The position numbers and the translations under genes are program-made. A stretch of DNA of 64,000 nucleotides from positions 1,874,175 to 1,938,174 of the forward strand of contig NC_013385.1 of NCBI RefSeq assembly GCF_000024605.1. The letters are read 5' to 3'. The stretch is from Ammonifex degensii KC4 (lineage in GTDB: Bacteria; Bacillota; Desulfotomaculia; Desulfotomaculales; Ammonificaceae). Positions 3,363 through 62,173 of the stretch are shown in pieces. Below the pieces are notes generated by a model, which worked only from the letters and a program-made list of their open reading frames with translations, had not been told where the DNA came from and did no database searches. The first letter of the stretch is position 1; every line of letters starts with the position of its first letter.

Positions 3363-3419
3363 AAAAACAAAAACCCTCCGGACGGTTGCCGGAAGGCTTC
3401 CTGACTTCCCCTACCGTCC
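3363..3419 (-). promoter_or_regulatory. Candidate attenuator in the leader of the pan operon
   Basis: On the minus strand a terminator-like hairpin is formed by 3396-3389 (CCTTCCGG) and 3381-3374 (CCGGAGGG), followed by GTTTTTGTTTTT at 3373-3363. Its central bases can instead pair with upstream sequence: GGACGGT at 3419-3413 is complementary to ACCGTCC at 3386-3380. That would prevent the terminator. The hairpin lies about 35 bases before the DUF2520 start and about 145 bases after the speE stop, so it could also simply end speE transcription. I recognise no riboswitch class. Confidence 0.45.
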
Positions 3420-3540
3420 GTCTCGGTCCTGAGCGGATCCAAGCGGCCTTAAAATTTCTTATGGTTTTAAACCAAATCGAGCTTTATTTCCGGTACGGCT
3501 CCGGAAACTTGCACGGATGCCGTCCTCAAGCGGTTTTATT

Positions 3541-44835: not shown

Positions 44836-45160
44836 AATTTTTCCCGTCCCTAAGCTTAGGGACGGGAATTTTTTTCCCGCGGTACCACCCTAATTGGCCG
44901 CACAAGGCGACCCGGCTCTTTACAGGATACGGGAGAAGCGCTTTTATCTTCTCCGATATCCCCTCCCTTTTAACGGTGGGAGTTCCGGCCTAGACTACGC
45001 ACCCGGGAACTTTCTCCCGGGCTTCACCCGGCAGCTCCGGGGTGAACTTCACACCTGGCGGCTTTACCGGGCTCGCACCCTCCCCGGCTCGCTGGGAAAG
45101 CCTTTCCAGGGCTACTTTACCCCTTCCTCGCCTTTCACTCTAGAAAATTTTTACGCTGAA
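44836..45160 (-). promoter_or_regulatory. T-box riboswitch, phenylalanine specifier
   Basis: On the minus strand the leader of aroF has all main parts of a T-box. Stem I contains AGTA opposite GAA, flanked by CCTGG/CCAGG and GGGG/CCCC stems. The specifier loop then reads GAA-G-TTC-A, giving the Phe codon TTC at 45046-45044. The apical part shows GAGCCGGGGAGGGTGCGAGC. The T-box sequence AGGGTGGTACCGCG is at 44891-44878. A 12+12 palindrome terminator (44866-44843) with a T run follows. Uncharged tRNA-Phe would therefore raise DAHP synthase expression. Confidence 0.88.
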
Positions 45161-45371: not shown

Positions 45372-45572
45372 ATGGCTAGGATGTTCAAGAAGTGTCCAGG
45401 AAGTTCCTCACTTCGCACCCCGGAGCTTAAGATCAAAAAGTGCCCGGAGTGCGGCAGCGAGATAGAGATCTTCTCCACTGACCTCAAAGCCAGCTGCGAA
45501 CAGTGCGGTTTCACCGTCTACAACGATCTGCAGTCCTTTCAACAGCTACCGTATTTCCCTAAACAATTCTGA
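45372..45572 (+). CDS. Small zinc-ribbon protein of unknown role
   Basis: A 66-residue protein with two knuckles, CPECGSEIEIF and CEQCGFTVYN, that together would bind one zinc. The N-terminus MARMFKKCPGSSSLRTPEL recalls short conserved proteins in clostridia. The open frame reaches further upstream, but ATG 45372 has AAGGGG just before it. It lies on the plus strand, divergent from the aroF T-box, and directly before the TnpB-like gene. Function unknown. Confidence 0.65.
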   Translation: MARMFKKCPGSSSLRTPELKIKKCPECGSEIEIFSTDLKASCEQCGFTVYNDLQSFQQLPYFPKQF

Positions 45573-45655
45573 GCATCCTTTATCTTCTTCAACAGTTGCG
45601 CTCCCTAGCATGTCCTGGTAGAATCGACTTCGTCAGGGGAAACTTTGGCCTTCAG

Positions 45656-47146
45656 GTGAGAGTCTTGAAGTTCAAGACCAGGAAGCCCGCCGACATGATA
45701 ACCGTGCCCGGCCGGATATACCCGGATGAGACGGCAAAGGAAAGGCTCATCTCCTTCATGCGCCGGTTCCAGGCGGCAAAGCGCACCGCCTACCAGGCGC
45801 TGAGACGGGGAAAGGAACCGGAAGAAATCGTCAAGGACCTCTACCGGAAGTTCTTCCCCAACGCCCGCTGGTGCCAGTGGGCGCTGGAAGACGCAAAGGC
45901 CACCATCGAAAGTCAAAAGGAACAGGTCAAGATGCACGTCTCGGACCTGGAGGCCAAGATAGAGAAGTCCGAGGAGAAGCTCAAGCGCACCAAAAACGAA
46001 CTTCACCGCCAGGGGATACTGGCCCGCGTCGCGAGGCTGCGCGCGAAGCTGGAGTACTGGAAGGGTTTCCTGGAACGGGACGAAGTCCCTCCCGCCGTCT
46101 TCGGCGGGAAGAAAAACCTGCTGCTCCTCCAGGAAGGGAAGCTCTCCAAGGAGGAGTGGCGGGAGCTGAGGTCCAACGCCTTCTACTCCGTGGGCCAGGC
46201 CAACCAAAAGGGGCTGGAGAGCCAGTACGGCAACGCCAACACGGAAATCGTGTACGACGAGGCAACAGACTCCTTCCGGCTCAACGTGTACGTACCGCCG
46301 GAGCCAGGGGACGAGAGCGGCAGGCCGAGGCGGGACGAAGACTGGGTCTCCGTGCCCCTGGAGATTCCTGCCTGCTACCGGGACCTTCTCCTCCGTTGCC
46401 TGGCCGGGGGCGGGCCGTACTCGGTGCGGGTAGTGCGGAAGGCGGGCAGGTTCGACTGTCTCGTTTCCTTTTCCCTGCAGGACGAAGCGGAAGTGGACAG
46501 GACCTCCCTCATGGCCGGGATGGACTTGAACCCCGACGTGGTGGCGGTGACCGTCGTCCTGCCGGACGGGAACTTCAAGGTCTCCCGCTGTTTCTGGTGC
46601 CACGACCTGGTCCACGCTTCGCGCGAGAAGCGGGAGTGGATCGCGGGCAACCTGGCCAAAGAGGTGGCCAACTGGCTGGAGTCCCTGGGCGTGAAGCAGG
46701 CTGCCTTAGAGGAGCTTTCCTTTGCCCAGGACCACGACACCGACAGGGCGTTCAACCGGATCACGCACAACTTCTGCAAGAAGCTCCTCTTCAACCGCAT
46801 CGTCGTGGCTTTAAGGAAGCGCGGCATCGCGGTGTTCATCGTGCCCGCCCACTTCACTTCGCTCATAGGCTTCTTCAAGTACTCTGAGACTTACGGGCTT
46901 AACACCCACCAGGCGGCGGCTCTAGTCGTGGCGCGCCGGGCGCTGGGCTTTAAAGAAAAAGTGCCGAAGGCCCTCGTCCAGAAGCTTCTCGGGCGTTCGC
47001 CGATGGAAGGATGGACGCACTGGAAGCTCTGGGGCAGGCTCTTTGGCGTGCTCAGGGCAGCCCGGAAGAAGGTCTCCCGCTACTTCAACACCAGAGCCTT
47101 CACTCCTTCCGCCTGGCTGGAGCACATCTTCGCCAGGGCGGGCTAA
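45656..47146 (+). CDS. TnpB-like RNA-guided nuclease homologue, atypical
   Basis: About 496 residues, longer than the usual 400. Residues near 60-140 form a charged coiled coil (DLEAKIEKSEEKLKRTK). RuvC motif I reads AGMDLNPDVVAV and motif II ALEELSFAQDHD. Motif III reads YGLNTHQAAALVVARRALG: where TnpB has DxNAA, this protein has His, or Asn two residues earlier. The C4 zinc ribbon usually found between motifs II and III is absent. Family TnpB proteins cut DNA using an RNA made from the 3' end of their element; activity here is uncertain. GTG 45656 is the likely start; the frame opens 20 codons earlier. Confidence 0.75.
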   Translation: MRVLKFKTRKPADMITVPGRIYPDETAKERLISFMRRFQAAKRTAYQALRRGKEPEEIVKDLYRKFFPNARWCQWALEDAKATIESQKEQVKMHVSDLEAKIEKSEEKLKRTKNELHRQGILARVARLRAKLEYWKGFLERDEVPPAVFGGKKNLLLLQEGKLSKEEWRELRSNAFYSVGQANQKGLESQYGNANTEIVYDEATDSFRLNVYVPPEPGDESGRPRRDEDWVSVPLEIPACYRDLLLRCLAGGGPYSVRVVRKAGRFDCLVSFSLQDEAEVDRTSLMAGMDLNPDVVAVTVVLPDGNFKVSRCFWCHDLVHASREKREWIAGNLAKEVANWLESLGVKQAALEELSFAQDHDTDRAFNRITHNFCKKLLFNRIVVALRKRGIAVFIVPAHFTSLIGFFKYSETYGLNTHQAAALVVARRALGFKEKVPKALVQKLLGRSPMEGWTHWKLWGRLFGVLRAARKKVSRYFNTRAFTPSAWLEHIFARAG

Positions 47147-47516
47147 AGTCCGTTTTCTTTAAGCCTGCCGTCCTTCCCTGCCGGGGCTGCCCGGGGTTCC
47201 GGCAACACCTGGCGGTGGGGGTAAAGGGGCGGCGGGTAGGTGGGGTAACTCCCCCTCCCGGTACGTGCCCGGGGGCGGGTGCCGCCTGCGGGGACTTCCC
47301 CGTAGCCCACAGACGTGGGACCCGCCTGAGGGACGGAAAACGCCGGGATGCGGCCCGACAGCCGTGGGCCCGAGACCGGGAAGATGTGGGCCTTCCCCGT
47401 GAGGGGATGCCGGGCCGGCCAGACGGTGACGGAGGTAGCCGTCGGCAGGAGCCAAAAGCCCCTGTCTGCACAGTGAGTACCTGGGCGGGCTAAGCAAAAT
47501 ATATGCCTGCTTAGCC
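47147..47516 (+). ncRNA. Candidate structured RNA 3' of tnpB (omega-RNA-like)
   Basis: No gene occurs here, yet about 370 bases are very GC-rich and full of short perfect stems: CGGGG-ACTT-CCCCG (47290-47302), CCCAC-AGAC-GTGGG (47306-47319), GGCCC/GGGCC (47352-47370), GGGAAG/CTTCCC (47378-47397), CCCC-GTGA-GGGG (47395-47406, alternative), GACGG/CCGTC (47422-47443) and GGCTAAGCA/TGCTTAGCC (47488-47516). TnpB guide RNAs are encoded at this place, running from the gene end into the right end of the element. The folding is my reading by eye. Confidence 0.6.
47488..47516 (+). repeat. Perfect 9-bp inverted repeat, possible element right end
   Basis: GGCTAAGCA and TGCTTAGCC flank an 11-base AT-rich loop. 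There is no T run after it, so it is not a normal terminator. Subterminal hairpins of this sort mark IS200/IS605 ends. The last stem bases are partly repeated just after it (TTGCTTAGGG). Confidence 0.6.
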
Positions 47517-47644
47517 TTGCTTAGGGAAAATTGACCTCTAGGGGAAGAGCTTTATCAAAAGTTGAAAGAGTACAGGGCGGAAAAGCCGCCAGAGTTCTCC
47601 TAGCGGCCGGCTTTGACCCCTCAATCTCAATCATAAAAAGCTGG

Positions 47645-47688: not shown

Positions 47689-47767
47689 GCGCCCGTAGCT
47701 CAGTGGATAGAGCGCTGGCCTCCGGAGCCAGGTCTTTGCGCAGGTTCGACTCCTGCCGGGCGCACCA
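47689..47767 (+). tRNA. tRNA-Arg (anticodon CCG)
   Basis: A full cloverleaf of 79 bases including an encoded CCA end. Acceptor stem GCGCCCG/CGGGCGC, D arm GTAGCTCAGTGGATAGAGC, anticodon arm CTGGC-CTCCGGA-GCCAG with anticodon CCG (reads codon CGG), and T arm GCAGG-TTCGACT-CCTGC. It is expressed from its own promoter, in the plus-strand accessory patch. Confidence 0.95.
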
Positions 47768-47780
47768 AGAGAGAATAAAA

Positions 47781-47804
47781 GGTCCGTGTTTTCAAACACG
47801 GACC
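47781..47804. terminator. Bidirectional terminator hairpin next to the intron
   Basis: GGTCCGTGT and ACACGGACC form a perfect stem with a short loop. On the plus strand it follows tRNA-Arg; on the minus strand it is followed by TTTTATTCTC and would have ended the methyltransferase transcript before the intron arrived. The group II intron starts 9 bases after it, the known preference of class C introns. Confidence 0.8.
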
Positions 47805-47813
47805 TTAAGTTTT

Positions 47814-49699
47814 GTGTGCCCGGCATGGGCGTTGTCTATAGGGTGAAAGTCCCGAACGACGAAGGTGGCGGTAGTCGTTAGCTTAAGGCAAGGGTGTCCG
47901 CCGCGAGGCGGAATCCGAAGGAAGCCGGCGGCAAACCTCCGGCCCGAGGACCACGAACCCCAGGCGAGGCTAGCGGCAGCTGGATGAGCTTGCAAAACAA
48001 AGCGAAGTCCTGGCCACCGAAGGCTGCCGAGAGTAGATGGGGCGGGTAGATGGAGGGAAAGACAGCGCCCTTACCCGGGGAGGCCTGCCGGACAAGCCGG
48101 GTTATCCGGCAACCTGTACCGAGAGGTGCGGCTGAACCGGCAGGAGTCAGCAGACGCCATAGTACTCCCTTTTAAGATGTCAAAGGGGGGAAGGGCCGAA
48201 CATGAGGAGCGGGGAGCCCATGGAAGGTTCGCGGAGGGAGCAACGACAGCCGAAAATCCCGGCAGGGAGCTGCCCACAGGAGGAAGCGGTGAATCCGCGG
48301 GGAACTGTGGGAGTGCCGAGCACCCTCCCGGCACCGATGGAGCAACTCGGCGGAGACCCACGGTACTGCCTGATGGAACAGGTAGTCGAGCGGGCCAACA
48401 TGACGAAGGCCCTGCGCCGAGTGGAGCGGAACGGAGGCGCAGCCGGAGTGGATGGGATGGAGCCAGAAGCCCTACGCTCCTACCTGAAAGAACACTGGCC
48501 GCGCATCAAGGAAGAACTGCTCGCGGGGACCTACCGGCCCATGCCGGTGCGCCGGGTCGAAATCCCGAAACCCGGTGGCGGCGTGCGGCTGTTGGGCATC
48601 CCCACGGTGCTGGACCGCCTGATCCAGCAGGCCCTGCTTCAGGTACTGACACCCATCTTTGACCCCGGGTTTTCCCCACACAGCTACGACTTCCGCCCGG
48701 GGCGCAGCGCCCACCAGGCGGTGGAGCAAGCCCGCAGGTACGTGGCCCAGGGCTACCGGCACGTGGTGGACCTCGACCTGGCACAATTCTTCGACCGCGT
48801 CAACCATGACCTCCTGATGGCCAGGGTGGCGCGGAAGGTGAAGGACAAGCGGGTACTCAAGTTAATACGGGCCTACCTTCAGGCCGGAGTCATGATTAAT
48901 GGCTGCTGCGTACGCACGGAGGAGGGCACCCCGCAGGGAGGGCCGCTGAGCCCGCTTCTGGCCAATATCATTCTGGACGACCTGGACAAAGAACTGGAGC
49001 GGCGCGGCCACAAGTTCGTAAGGTACGCCGATGACAGCAACGTTTACGTAAGAAGCTGCCGCGCCGGCCAGCGGGTGTTCGAGAGCCTGAAGCGCTTCCT
49101 GGAGCAACGGCTCAAGCTACGGATAAACGAGGAAAAGAGCGCCGTGGACTACGCCTGGCGGCGCGGAATCCTCGGCTTTTCCTTCACCTGGGAAAAGGAG
49201 CCGCGCATCCGGCTGGCACCCCAGACGGTGAAGCGGTTCAAGCAGCGCATCCGCTGGCTCACCAAGCGCAGCCGCAGTGTGAATATGGCCGAGCGTCTGG
49301 CGCGCCTCAACGAATACCTCAAGGGATGGATGGGCTACTTTCGGCTGATAGAGACCCCCAGCACACTGCAGGCCCTGGACGAGTGGATACGGCGGCGACT
49401 GCGCATGTGTCTGTTGAAGCAATGGAAGCGGCCCCGCACCAGACGACGCAACCTGGTGGCCCTGGGCATTCCTGAGGACTGGGCGCGCCACATTAGCGGT
49501 TCGCGCAAAGGCTGCTGGCGGCTGGCGAACACGCCCCAGGTGAACAAAGCCCTTGGCCTTGCCTACTGGCGCAGCCAAGGGCTGGTTAGCTTGGTCGACC
49601 GGTACCGTGAACTTCGTAGTGCCTCATGAACCGCCGTATACCGAACGGTACGTACGGTGGTGTGAGAGGACGGGGGTTAGCCGCCCCCTCCTACTCGAT
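47814..49699 (+). mobile_element. Group II intron (class C type), complete with reverse transcriptase
   Basis: The 5' end GTGTGCCCGGCATGGGCG matches the GUGYG intron start, followed by structured domain I and an encoded reverse transcriptase. Domain V lies near 49628-49662 (GAACCGCCGTATACCGAACG and onward), and domain VI, with its branch-point A, ends at CTACTCGAT at 49699. Length 1886 bases. Insertion 9 bases after a terminator hairpin, and a maturase without an endonuclease domain, both point to class C. The borders rest on recognition of the consensus ends. Confidence 0.85.
48202..49629 (+). CDS. ltrA: Group II intron reverse transcriptase/maturase
   Basis: A 475-residue intron-encoded protein. 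The reverse transcriptase domain has GAAGVDGMEPEAL near residue 80, SHYDF-type motif HSYDFRPGRSAHQAVEQA near 160, VVDLDLAQFFDRVNHDLL near 190, GTPQGGPLSPLLANI near 247 and the catalytic FVRYADDSNVYV near 275. The maturase (GIIM) domain follows near 365-410 (YLKGWMGYFRLIETP). No HNH endonuclease follows. It lies wholly inside the intron and should assist splicing and retrohoming. It appears intact. Confidence 0.93.
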   Translation: MRSGEPMEGSRREQRQPKIPAGSCPQEEAVNPRGTVGVPSTLPAPMEQLGGDPRYCLMEQVVERANMTKALRRVERNGGAAGVDGMEPEALRSYLKEHWPRIKEELLAGTYRPMPVRRVEIPKPGGGVRLLGIPTVLDRLIQQALLQVLTPIFDPGFSPHSYDFRPGRSAHQAVEQARRYVAQGYRHVVDLDLAQFFDRVNHDLLMARVARKVKDKRVLKLIRAYLQAGVMINGCCVRTEEGTPQGGPLSPLLANIILDDLDKELERRGHKFVRYADDSNVYVRSCRAGQRVFESLKRFLEQRLKLRINEEKSAVDYAWRRGILGFSFTWEKEPRIRLAPQTVKRFKQRIRWLTKRSRSVNMAERLARLNEYLKGWMGYFRLIETPSTLQALDEWIRRRLRMCLLKQWKRPRTRRRNLVALGIPEDWARHISGSRKGCWRLANTPQVNKALGLAYWRSQGLVSLVDRYRELRSAS

Positions 49700-50590
49700 T
49701 TGCGGCGGGAAGTATACTTCTTTTACCCGCCAAAACATTATTCCTCTGCAGAAGCAGCGTTTCCAGCGGTAGGTCTCCCCGAAAGAGCGCTCCCGCACGT
49801 ATCGTTCGATGGTCTCCTTTACCTCCGGCGTTATATCCAAGTACTGCCAGAAGAAACGTTCCAACTCCTCAATCACCTGTTCCACCGGGATTGCTTCTTC
49901 CCGAATCTCGGTGCTGAAGCGCAAGATGGGACGGTAGCCAGATGTGTAGAGGTAAAGAAAAGGAAAGATGATATCGGAGGGGCTCCCGCCAATATCCTCC
50001 TGAAAGAAGTACCGCCATAGCTCCTCATGCGCTCGATCCCACCGGGGACCGGCAAAGGCGCAGTAAAGGCAGCACTCGCGCGAAGCCTCCATGAATTTTA
50101 AAAAAGTGGCCGGGTCGTTCACCCCTGGCGTCATGGAAGCTAAGACCAGGTCGAAGCGCTCCCGCCAGCCCTCCCGGTCAAGGTCCACTTCCTGCCAGGT
50201 GCTCCTGACGCAGGTTATAGGCAAATTCTCCTGTCGGGCCTGCTCCTCCAGGAACCTCAACATCTCTCTGGAGGGTTCGAGGGCGGTGACCTCCATTCCC
50301 TCCCGCGCCAGCACTAGGGCAAACGTCCCGGGTCCGGCGCCTATGTCCAGGACCCGCATGCCCGGCCGCAGAGCTCCCTCCTGGCGGAGTACATCTAAAA
50401 CCTCCTGCTGTCTTTTTCTCCCTCTTTCCCCCATCACGTGGCGGGCAAAAGAAGGAGCCCTCTGATCCCATAAAGCTATTAGCTCTTCTTCGCTCCGCTT
50501 CCGCCGCCGGCTAAGCGGGCTTTCCCTACGCGTCTTCTCCCAAAGGTTAAGCCAGAACTCCGGCTCGGCCAGCTCCCCTATCAACCGCAA
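49691..50590 (-). CDS. Class I SAM-dependent methyltransferase, 3' end altered by the intron
   Basis: A 299-residue methyltransferase of unknown substrate. The SAM fold reads MRVLDIGAGPGTFALVLAREG near residue 78, split here as MRVLDIGAGPGTFA, with VTALEPSREMLRFL near 100 and DLVLASMTPGVND near 145. The N-terminal 50 residues are basic and helical. Its stop codon (TAG, 49693-49691) is supplied by the last bases of the group II intron. Without the intron the frame would run about six codons further into the terminator hairpin. So the last three residues are intron-encoded, probably harmless. Confidence 0.8.
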   Translation of the reverse strand: MRLIGELAEPEFWLNLWEKTRRESPLSRRRKRSEEELIALWDQRAPSFARHVMGERGRKRQQEVLDVLRQEGALRPGMRVLDIGAGPGTFALVLAREGMEVTALEPSREMLRFLEEQARQENLPITCVRSTWQEVDLDREGWRERFDLVLASMTPGVNDPATFLKFMEASRECCLYCAFAGPRWDRAHEELWRYFFQEDIGGSPSDIIFPFLYLYTSGYRPILRFSTEIREEAIPVEQVIEELERFFWQYLDITPEVKETIERYVRERSFGETYRWKRCFCRGIMFWRVKEVYFPPQIE

Positions 50591-61287: not shown

Positions 61288-61320
61288 CCTGCCTTCACCT
61301 CCTTCCGGGCACCAAAATAG

Positions 61321-61464
61321 AAAGGGCGGAACCGCCAAAAACCGAGGTTCCGCCCAGTTAAAGGCTTGATTCTAAGCAAACCCTCAACCAGCCCAACAGC
61401 ACCTCGGTTGGCGGCGAAGCTTCTCGCCTTTAAGCCCTTAAAAGGGCACCAACTGTCTCAGGCA
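61321..61464 (-). ncRNA. Ribosomal protein L10 leader
   Basis: Between rplA and rplJ the transcript has the L10-leader layout: GCCTGAGACAGTTGGTGCC (61464-61446), then GCCAACCGAGGTGCTGTTGG, then an attenuator hairpin GGGCGGAACC/GGTTCCGCCC (61355-61324) with TTTCTATTTT after it. The CCGAGG of the first part can pair with the CCTCGG in the attenuator arm and loop. In relatives L10 binds this RNA to reduce its own synthesis. Confidence 0.8.
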
Positions 61465-61474
61465 GAAAGGAATT

Positions 61475-62173
61475 TTATGAGGCCAGGAGCTTGGCCGGAT
61501 TCACTTTTACCCCAGGGCCCATGGTGGAGGAAACGGTTATGCTGCGTAGGTACTGACCCTTCGCCGCCGGCGGCTTGGCCCGTACCAAGGCGTCCACCAG
61601 GGCCTTCAGGTTTTCCACCAGCTTTTCCACCTCAAAAGAAACCTTGCCGATGGGGGCGTGCACGATCCCCGCCTTGTCCGTCCGGTACTCTACCCGGCCC
61701 GCTTTGGCCTCAGCTACTGCCTGGGCCACATCAAAGGTCACCGTGCCCGTCTTGGGGTTGGGCATAAGCCCCCGCGGACCTAAAATACGACCGATGCGCC
61801 CCACCATAGCCATCATGTCGGGCGTGGCGATGGCTACGTCGAAGTCAAGCCAACCCCCCTGGATGCGGGCAATGAGGTCTTCTGCTCCCACATAATCGGC
61901 TCCTGCCGCCTCCGCTTCCTTGGCCTTCTCGCCTCGGGCAAAGACCAGCACCCGCCGCGTCTTGCCCGTACCGTGGGGCAGCACCACCGCACCCCGCACC
62001 TGCTGGTCGGCATGCCGGGGATCAACCCCCAGCCGCACAGCCACCTCCACCGTCTCGTCGAACTTGGCGGAAGCTAAGCGCTTGACCAACTCTAGAGCCT
62101 CGTAGGGATCGTAAAGCTTGGTGCGGTCTACTTGTTTCTTTGCTTCCAGGTACTTTTTGCCGTGCTTGGGCAC
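61475..62173 (-). CDS. rplA: Ribosomal protein L1
   Basis: The 232-residue L1 protein of the E-site stalk: [20 protein letters not shown] at the start, [20 protein letters not shown] near 48 and [20 protein letters not shown] near 130. GTG 62173 follows AAGGAGG. It lies 53 bases after rplK in the standard order. Confidence 0.96.

Follow-up and report, generated by a model that had tools for sequence, protein, structure and literature searches.

Scaffolds of the guide RNAs (omega-RNA or reRNA) of well-studied TnpB systems are about 106-190 nt long. A zinc ribbon is found in typical TnpB members, though not universally, and IStrons combine tnpB with a self-splicing intron and a guide RNA. Experimentally processed omega-RNAs range from 79 to 466 nt, and the survey that reported them also recognised TnpB clades with a rearranged RuvC site, RIII-r4 and RII-r3/5 (PMC10278001). 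In ISFba1 and related IS607 elements, which have a serine transposase, a TnpB of ~390 aa is followed directly on its 3' side by a reRNA scaffold of about 187 nt with the RAGATH-18 motif; the guide comes from the right flank, the TAM is AGGAG or GAGGG, and a pseudoknot, PK2, joins the bases immediately 5' of the guide to an apical loop upstream (PMC11061315). Characterised IS607 members use a GG crossover (PMC6188088). In one such element, ISXfa1, the TAM (GGG) overlaps the crossover dinucleotide, and the scaffold of its ~150-nt reRNA includes the base of the right flank that the crossover fixes (PMC10711439). The IS200/IS605 element ISDra2, which has a Y1 transposase, carries a 116-nt ordered scaffold with TAM TTGAT; here too the order is guide, pseudoknot and stem, with pairing between the nucleotides that immediately precede the guide and a loop ~100 nt upstream (PMC10097598).

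The window analysed here is a stretch of 64,000 nucleotides from the genome of Ammonifex degensii KC4 (2.16 Mb, two contigs). Positions 45533-47538 of the window are an IS607-type insertion element that carries tnpB but not tnpA, and its 3' part is a block of 67% GC that begins immediately after the tnpB stop codon (47144-47146). Most likely this block supplies the 3' scaffold of a guide RNA for the adjacent TnpB. The main features are the following.
45533 to 45535, + strand: GTC at the left junction, target-derived, the predicted TAM and insertion site, with TC as the likely crossover dinucleotide
45536 to 45655, + strand: left end of the element, with the motif CAACAG at 45540-45545, placed by alignment of the in-genome copies
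45656 to 47146, + strand: tnpB, 496 aa with a presumed GTG start, RuvC motif residues D290, E352, D361 and H418
47147 to 47538, + strand: probable omega-RNA/reRNA scaffold of about 392 nt, a conserved block with covariation, a fold z-score of -3.8 and no Rfam match
47537 to 47538, + strand: TC at the right boundary, the likely crossover dinucleotide, within the RNA scaffold; all copies end in ...GACCTC
47539 to 47558, + strand: predicted guide of the window copy, TAGGGGAAGAGCTTTATCAA, about 20 nt from the first unique flank base onward

The arrangement is that of an OMEGA system: a TnpB/Cas12-type protein, a structured RNA running from the 3' side of tnpB to the element end and then a host-derived guide, and, in empty sites, a predicted TAM (GTC) directly 5' of the guide sequence. 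The element family shares with ISFba1 its serine transposase, the position of the scaffold, the source of the guide and a candidate for a 3'-end pseudoknot with an apical loop, but its scaffold is 341-435 nt long and lacks the RAGATH-18 motif, its predicted TAM is GTC, and its TnpB is ~496 aa without a zinc ribbon. It resembles ISXfa1 in that the predicted TAM overlaps the likely crossover dinucleotide and the fixed base at the right junction falls within the scaffold, whereas GTC, TC and ~390 nt replace the corresponding values. The predicted guide-pseudoknot-stem order is shared with ISDra2, from which the family differs in transposase, scaffold length and TAM. Atypical RuvC residues are shared with the rearranged clades, whose omega-RNA range includes the size seen here. 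The first-pass annotation called the RNA unusually large. Measured against the well-studied scaffolds it is, at 392 nt, but since processed omega-RNAs of 79-466 nt have been published, a block of ~390 nt is large but not unprecedented. Read as a guide RNA, it is a previously undescribed, unusually large family without an Rfam entry.

That annotation had based its proposal of a large scaffold directly 3' of tnpB on short hairpins. These are all present: CGGGG-ACTT-CCCCG at 47289-47302, CCCAC-AGAC-GTGGG at 47306-47319, CCCC-GTGA-GGGG at 47395-47406 and a perfect 9-bp inverted repeat, GGCTAAGCA/TGCTTAGCC, at 47488-47496/47508-47516. Counted as such, they are weak evidence. The block contains 7 perfect stems of at least 5 bp; dinucleotide shuffles average 3.5, and 8% of them reach 7, which makes the count borderline given the high GC content. 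The ACTT and AGAC stems lie inside an apical insertion missing from many relatives; the tetraloop stems were accordingly set aside as evidence. Relatives do retain the GTGA stem and the 9-bp repeat as structures. The fold of 47147-47538 as a whole has an energy of -210.6 kcal/mol versus -188.6 +/- 5.8 kcal/mol in shuffles (z = -3.8, reached by 0/100 shuffles).

Conservation and covariation are decisive for a real RNA block, and it is these that support the proposed scaffold. Other genomes indeed carry this block after related tnpB genes. The right end is retained in 23 elements, whose TnpB proteins are as little as ~57% identical; in these a 341-435-nt block lies 3' of the tnpB stop and ends in the same 15 bases, ...GGGAAA(A/G)TTGACCTC, followed by unique flank. 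A 374-base block occurs in seven copies in the host genome at 90-97% identity. In alignment A1, 76 pairs are supported, with 98.0% of cells forming standard pairs; when pairing partners were slid, paired cells fell to 37-54%. Compensatory, double-sided changes, which the first-pass annotation had named as a check, occur in 16 of the 76 pairs, and the covariation score is 0.232 versus 0.154 in shuffles (0/500). The right-end hairpin and terminal stem are among the parts with compensatory changes, and copies found later added to these. When 398 sampled genomes of the phylum were searched with a covariance model (R1) built on the final 121 positions, the RNA was detected in 13 of them. The matches examined are beside tnpB or in remnants of the same element except for the weakest (31 bits, genome G122), which has no TnpB or TnpA nearby and was taken as chance. 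The block has no match in Rfam at the gathering score or at E <= 5, and this includes the RAGATH-18, HEARO (IscB omega-RNA) and group I intron core models. Elsewhere in the window, Rfam matches above gathering were a T-box leader (44855-45137, - strand), a pan motif (3414-3526, - strand) and an L10 leader (61309-61480, - strand).

Within the scaffold the following parts were distinguished.
47163 to 47237, + strand: 13-bp helix P1 (47163-47175 with 47225-47237) around hairpin P2 (47179-47204)
47242 to 47254, + strand: hairpin GGGGTAACTCCCC, kept in all relatives with little variation
47289 to 47319, + strand: the ACTT and AGAC tetraloop stems, within an apical insertion specific to some lineages
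47419 to 47445, + strand: core hairpin, invariant in the family, with loop GAGGT at 47432-47436
47446 to 47464, + strand: variable hairpin H9, its sequence swapped between lineages with pairing kept
47471 to 47533, + strand: terminal stem (CAGT 47471-47474 with ATTG 47530-47533; CCT 47480-47482 with AGG 47523-47525) capped by the right-end hairpin of 9 bp (47488-47496/47508-47516), with compensatory changes

Helix P1 has 98.3% of its cells paired, and hairpin P2 is remade from different sequence in relatives. L062-L068 and L078 lack the apical insertion, and L070-L072 and L090 have other sequence in its place. Since MAFFT misaligns 47446-47464, the arms of H9 were compared by hand. They are replaced wholesale between lineages with pairing maintained: the second pair is AT, TA, CG, GC or TG and the third is GC or CG.

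The exact borders of the element were obtained by aligning its copies in the host genome. There are eight, with relatives in other thermophilic Firmicutes; tnpB is likewise present in eight genome copies, some truncated or broken. The outer flanks differ from copy to copy, which fixes the borders. The left end reads GTC(C/T)NNNCAACAG at 45533 and the right end ...GGGAAAATTGACCTC at 47538, with unique flank beyond. The first-pass annotation had ended the block at the 9-bp repeat (47516), but it is conserved to 47538 in all copies. Relatives in other genomes have a serine-recombinase TnpA with an N-terminal HTH upstream of tnpB and overlapping it; in intact relatives tnpA sits at the left end, where the window copy lacks it. 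The TnpA proteins of three relatives scored 206-212 bits against NF033518, the NCBI IS607-transposase model (cut-off 110), and thus the window element belongs to an IS607-type family, as a member that has no tnpA. There is no target-site duplication, as GTC is found on the left, CTC on the right and a single GTC at the empty site. This pattern suggests insertion at a 2-bp core, presumably TC, which is common to GTC and CTC and is the likely crossover in place of the GG of characterised IS607 members. In two deletion derivatives, L144 (1442-1559) and L149 (1501-1531), tnpA fragments are joined to the right end, of which L149 retains just the final ~31 nt; the element ends thus survive without tnpB. 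The host genome (contigs C1 and C2) is unusually rich in TnpB-like loci for its 2.16 Mb, with about 30 from several families. Downstream of the window element, positions 47689-49700 hold a tRNA gene and, within ~60 bases, a group II intron with a reverse-transcriptase-like ORF.

Empty sites define where the guide begins. All 15 aligned left ends start with GTC and are unconserved upstream; two more read likewise by eye. The element in L090 (NZ_CP061967) is bounded as ...GACCCG GTC (element) CTC TTTTACGAG..., and the uninterrupted gene in two genomes reads ...GACCCG GTC TTTTACGAG..., so that in the empty sites (...GACCCG-GTC-TTTTACG) the guide matches. For copy L040, the empty site in a sister genome is ...CTCAAG-GTC-TG.... 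GTC therefore stands immediately 5' of the guide-to-be, from which we infer that it is the TAM; in the occupied site CTC precedes the guide instead. The same sites place the first guide base at 47539, rather than after about 47517 as the first-pass annotation had it. The L090 record, NZ_CP061967.1, is labelled as a Klebsiella pneumoniae plasmid; its flanks are 90-96% identical to three genomes of the order of the window's host (G061, G065 and G017), and it is probably a contaminant or mislabelled record.

Some insertion sites show additional rearrangement. The window element splits a small zinc-ribbon gene (45372-45535 and 47541-47603, ...CEQCGFTVYNDLQ and GEELYQKLKEYRAEKPPEFS). Since intact relatives of this gene have 13 residues between the two parts, ~35 bp between two GTC motifs was apparently lost at insertion, the second GTC being presumed at this site. 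For L039/L099, the left flank and the guide lie 83 bp apart in a sister genome, and the spacer begins and ends with GTC. A possible cause is that the right end recombined with a GTC close by, which would give the element a new guide.

The 3' end of the scaffold, ACCUC (47534-47538), is complementary to the loop GAGGU (47432-47436) of the core hairpin, and both segments are invariant within the family. We suggest that they can pair to form a pseudoknot beside the guide. RNAalifold had paired the 3' end with an AGG (alignment columns 175-177); this was replaced by the loop pairing, which the sister families support. In the sister TnpB families (562 aa, 537 aa, L079/L086 and L080) the right end is ACCAGG, and CCUGGU or CUUGGU is found upstream, within a hairpin loop where checked by eye; L081/L082 have no loop that matches their 3' end. 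The left ends of the sister families differ as well. The two in this genome (L046-L057, 562-aa and 537-aa TnpB) have a related TnpB (29-39% identity in parts) and a right end of similar plan, but their left end is GGAGG..., their right end finishes in ...ACCAGG and their loop is CCUGGU as opposed to GAGGU. Model R1 does not match the sister-family RNAs and hence we do not claim a single RNA superfamily. The 562-aa family (L046-L049) has a GC-rich, conserved 3' block of 313-320 nt ending in ...GAACCAGG, which is a candidate for another large omega-RNA.

The TnpB protein is related to known members but is atypical. Translated from the TTG at 45596, the protein would have 516 aa, but relatives start around residue 21-24 of this longer frame, making GTG at 45656 the likely start. 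NCBIfam guided_TnpB was hit in 12/12 members (best 3.8e-20); the window TnpB alone gave 22.6 bits, below the cut-off of 100. A Pfam search with the window TnpB returned nothing, and viral contigs contained no relatives by single protein or by alignment. An AlphaFold2 model from 8 sequences had a mean pLDDT of 58.6 and a poor RuvC domain; Foldseek with this low-confidence model found Cas12f and Cas12m as the best PDB matches, with TnpB further down. Across 12 sequences with identities as low as 33%, D290, E352, D361 and H418 never vary. In the sequence alignment, D290 and E352 of the canonical D-E-D triad are present and His418 takes the third position. The CxxC...CxxC zinc ribbon is absent between RuvC-II and RuvC-III, where the segment reads FTSLIGFFKYSETYGLNTHQAAAL and has no CxxC. 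These two differences make nuclease activity uncertain. The non-canonical triad limits a claim of an active nuclease but not of relatedness, because the published TnpB clades include such RuvC rearrangements (PMC10278001). dN/dS is 0.21-0.30 among the genome copies and 0.12-0.22 against other genera; TnpB is under purifying selection and is maintained.

The same residues raise the question of whether the RNA guides a TnpB that only binds, RuvC-compromised in the manner of TldR or Cas12m, so that the system would block or repress without cleavage. The RuvC-III His in place of Asp in all family members and the missing zinc ribbon are what such a protein might show. Yet His is natural at this position in Cas9 and Thermus RuvC, the invariance of all four residues suggests a maintained active site, and the protein is still carried on mobile elements. 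Binding-only relatives do exist (Cas12m, PMC11013384; TldR, PMC13418256), but an atypical-RuvC TnpB, RII-r5, cleaves DNA (PMC10278001). On balance we regard a binding-only system as unlikely.

Readings that give the block no guide function fare worse. The right end must contain TnpA sites, a serine recombinase mobilises the element, the outermost right end is kept in both deletion derivatives, and a GC-rich region 3' of a gene could also serve as right-end DNA. That the block acts solely as DNA, for transposase binding or synapsis, is nonetheless improbable: IS607 ends consist of short directly repeated motifs and not long inverted structures (PMC6188088), covariation that extends over ~390 nt and includes G-U pairs would be expected from RNA and not from duplex DNA sites, and the right end of L149 is reduced to its last ~31 nt. 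A large, GC-rich and highly structured region might also be some other RNA riding in the element, such as a ribozyme or the group I intron part of an IStron. We consider this very improbable, given that Rfam returned no match for the block, that the ~120 nt on the 5' side of the element have no structured partner and that the nearby group II intron (47820 on) is a separate element; the IStron reading was rejected on the Rfam result and the covariation. Chance hairpins in a GC-rich intergenic stretch would account for the plain stem count, but they are refuted by the conservation in 23 elements and the covariation, to which the fold z-score adds, leaving this explanation a negligible probability.

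With the block as a guide-RNA scaffold, we propose that a transcript would read through tnpB and beyond the right end and that 5' trimming would probably then yield a scaffold of at most ~390 nt. This would fold round the invariant core hairpin, close its pseudoknot with the last five bases and present ~20 nt of host sequence from 47539 onward as the guide. TnpB would bind this RNA, and the complex would recognise GTC followed by the guide sequence, which is the site emptied when the element departs, while sparing the occupied site with its CTC. By recognising or cutting that vacated site, the complex would help the element to persist and spread. Its hosts are apparently thermophilic, as several named relatives are, so that a heat-stable RNP is likely if the system is active. 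More tentatively, the family may be a TnpB lineage that functions with a D-E-H RuvC site, its third Asp replaced by His as in Cas9, together with a scaffold of ~390 nt, a GTC TAM and a pseudoknot that changed in step with the transposase crossover (GG and loop CCUGGU in the sisters, TC and loop GAGGU here).

These results add a strongly supported guide-RNA family with a predicted TAM, GTC, unlike the published AT-rich or G-rich TnpB TAMs. One genome offers a natural comparison in which related TnpB families differ in their element ends and RNA pseudoknots together, and this allows a test of how the site choice of the transposase and the structure of the guide RNA are kept in step.
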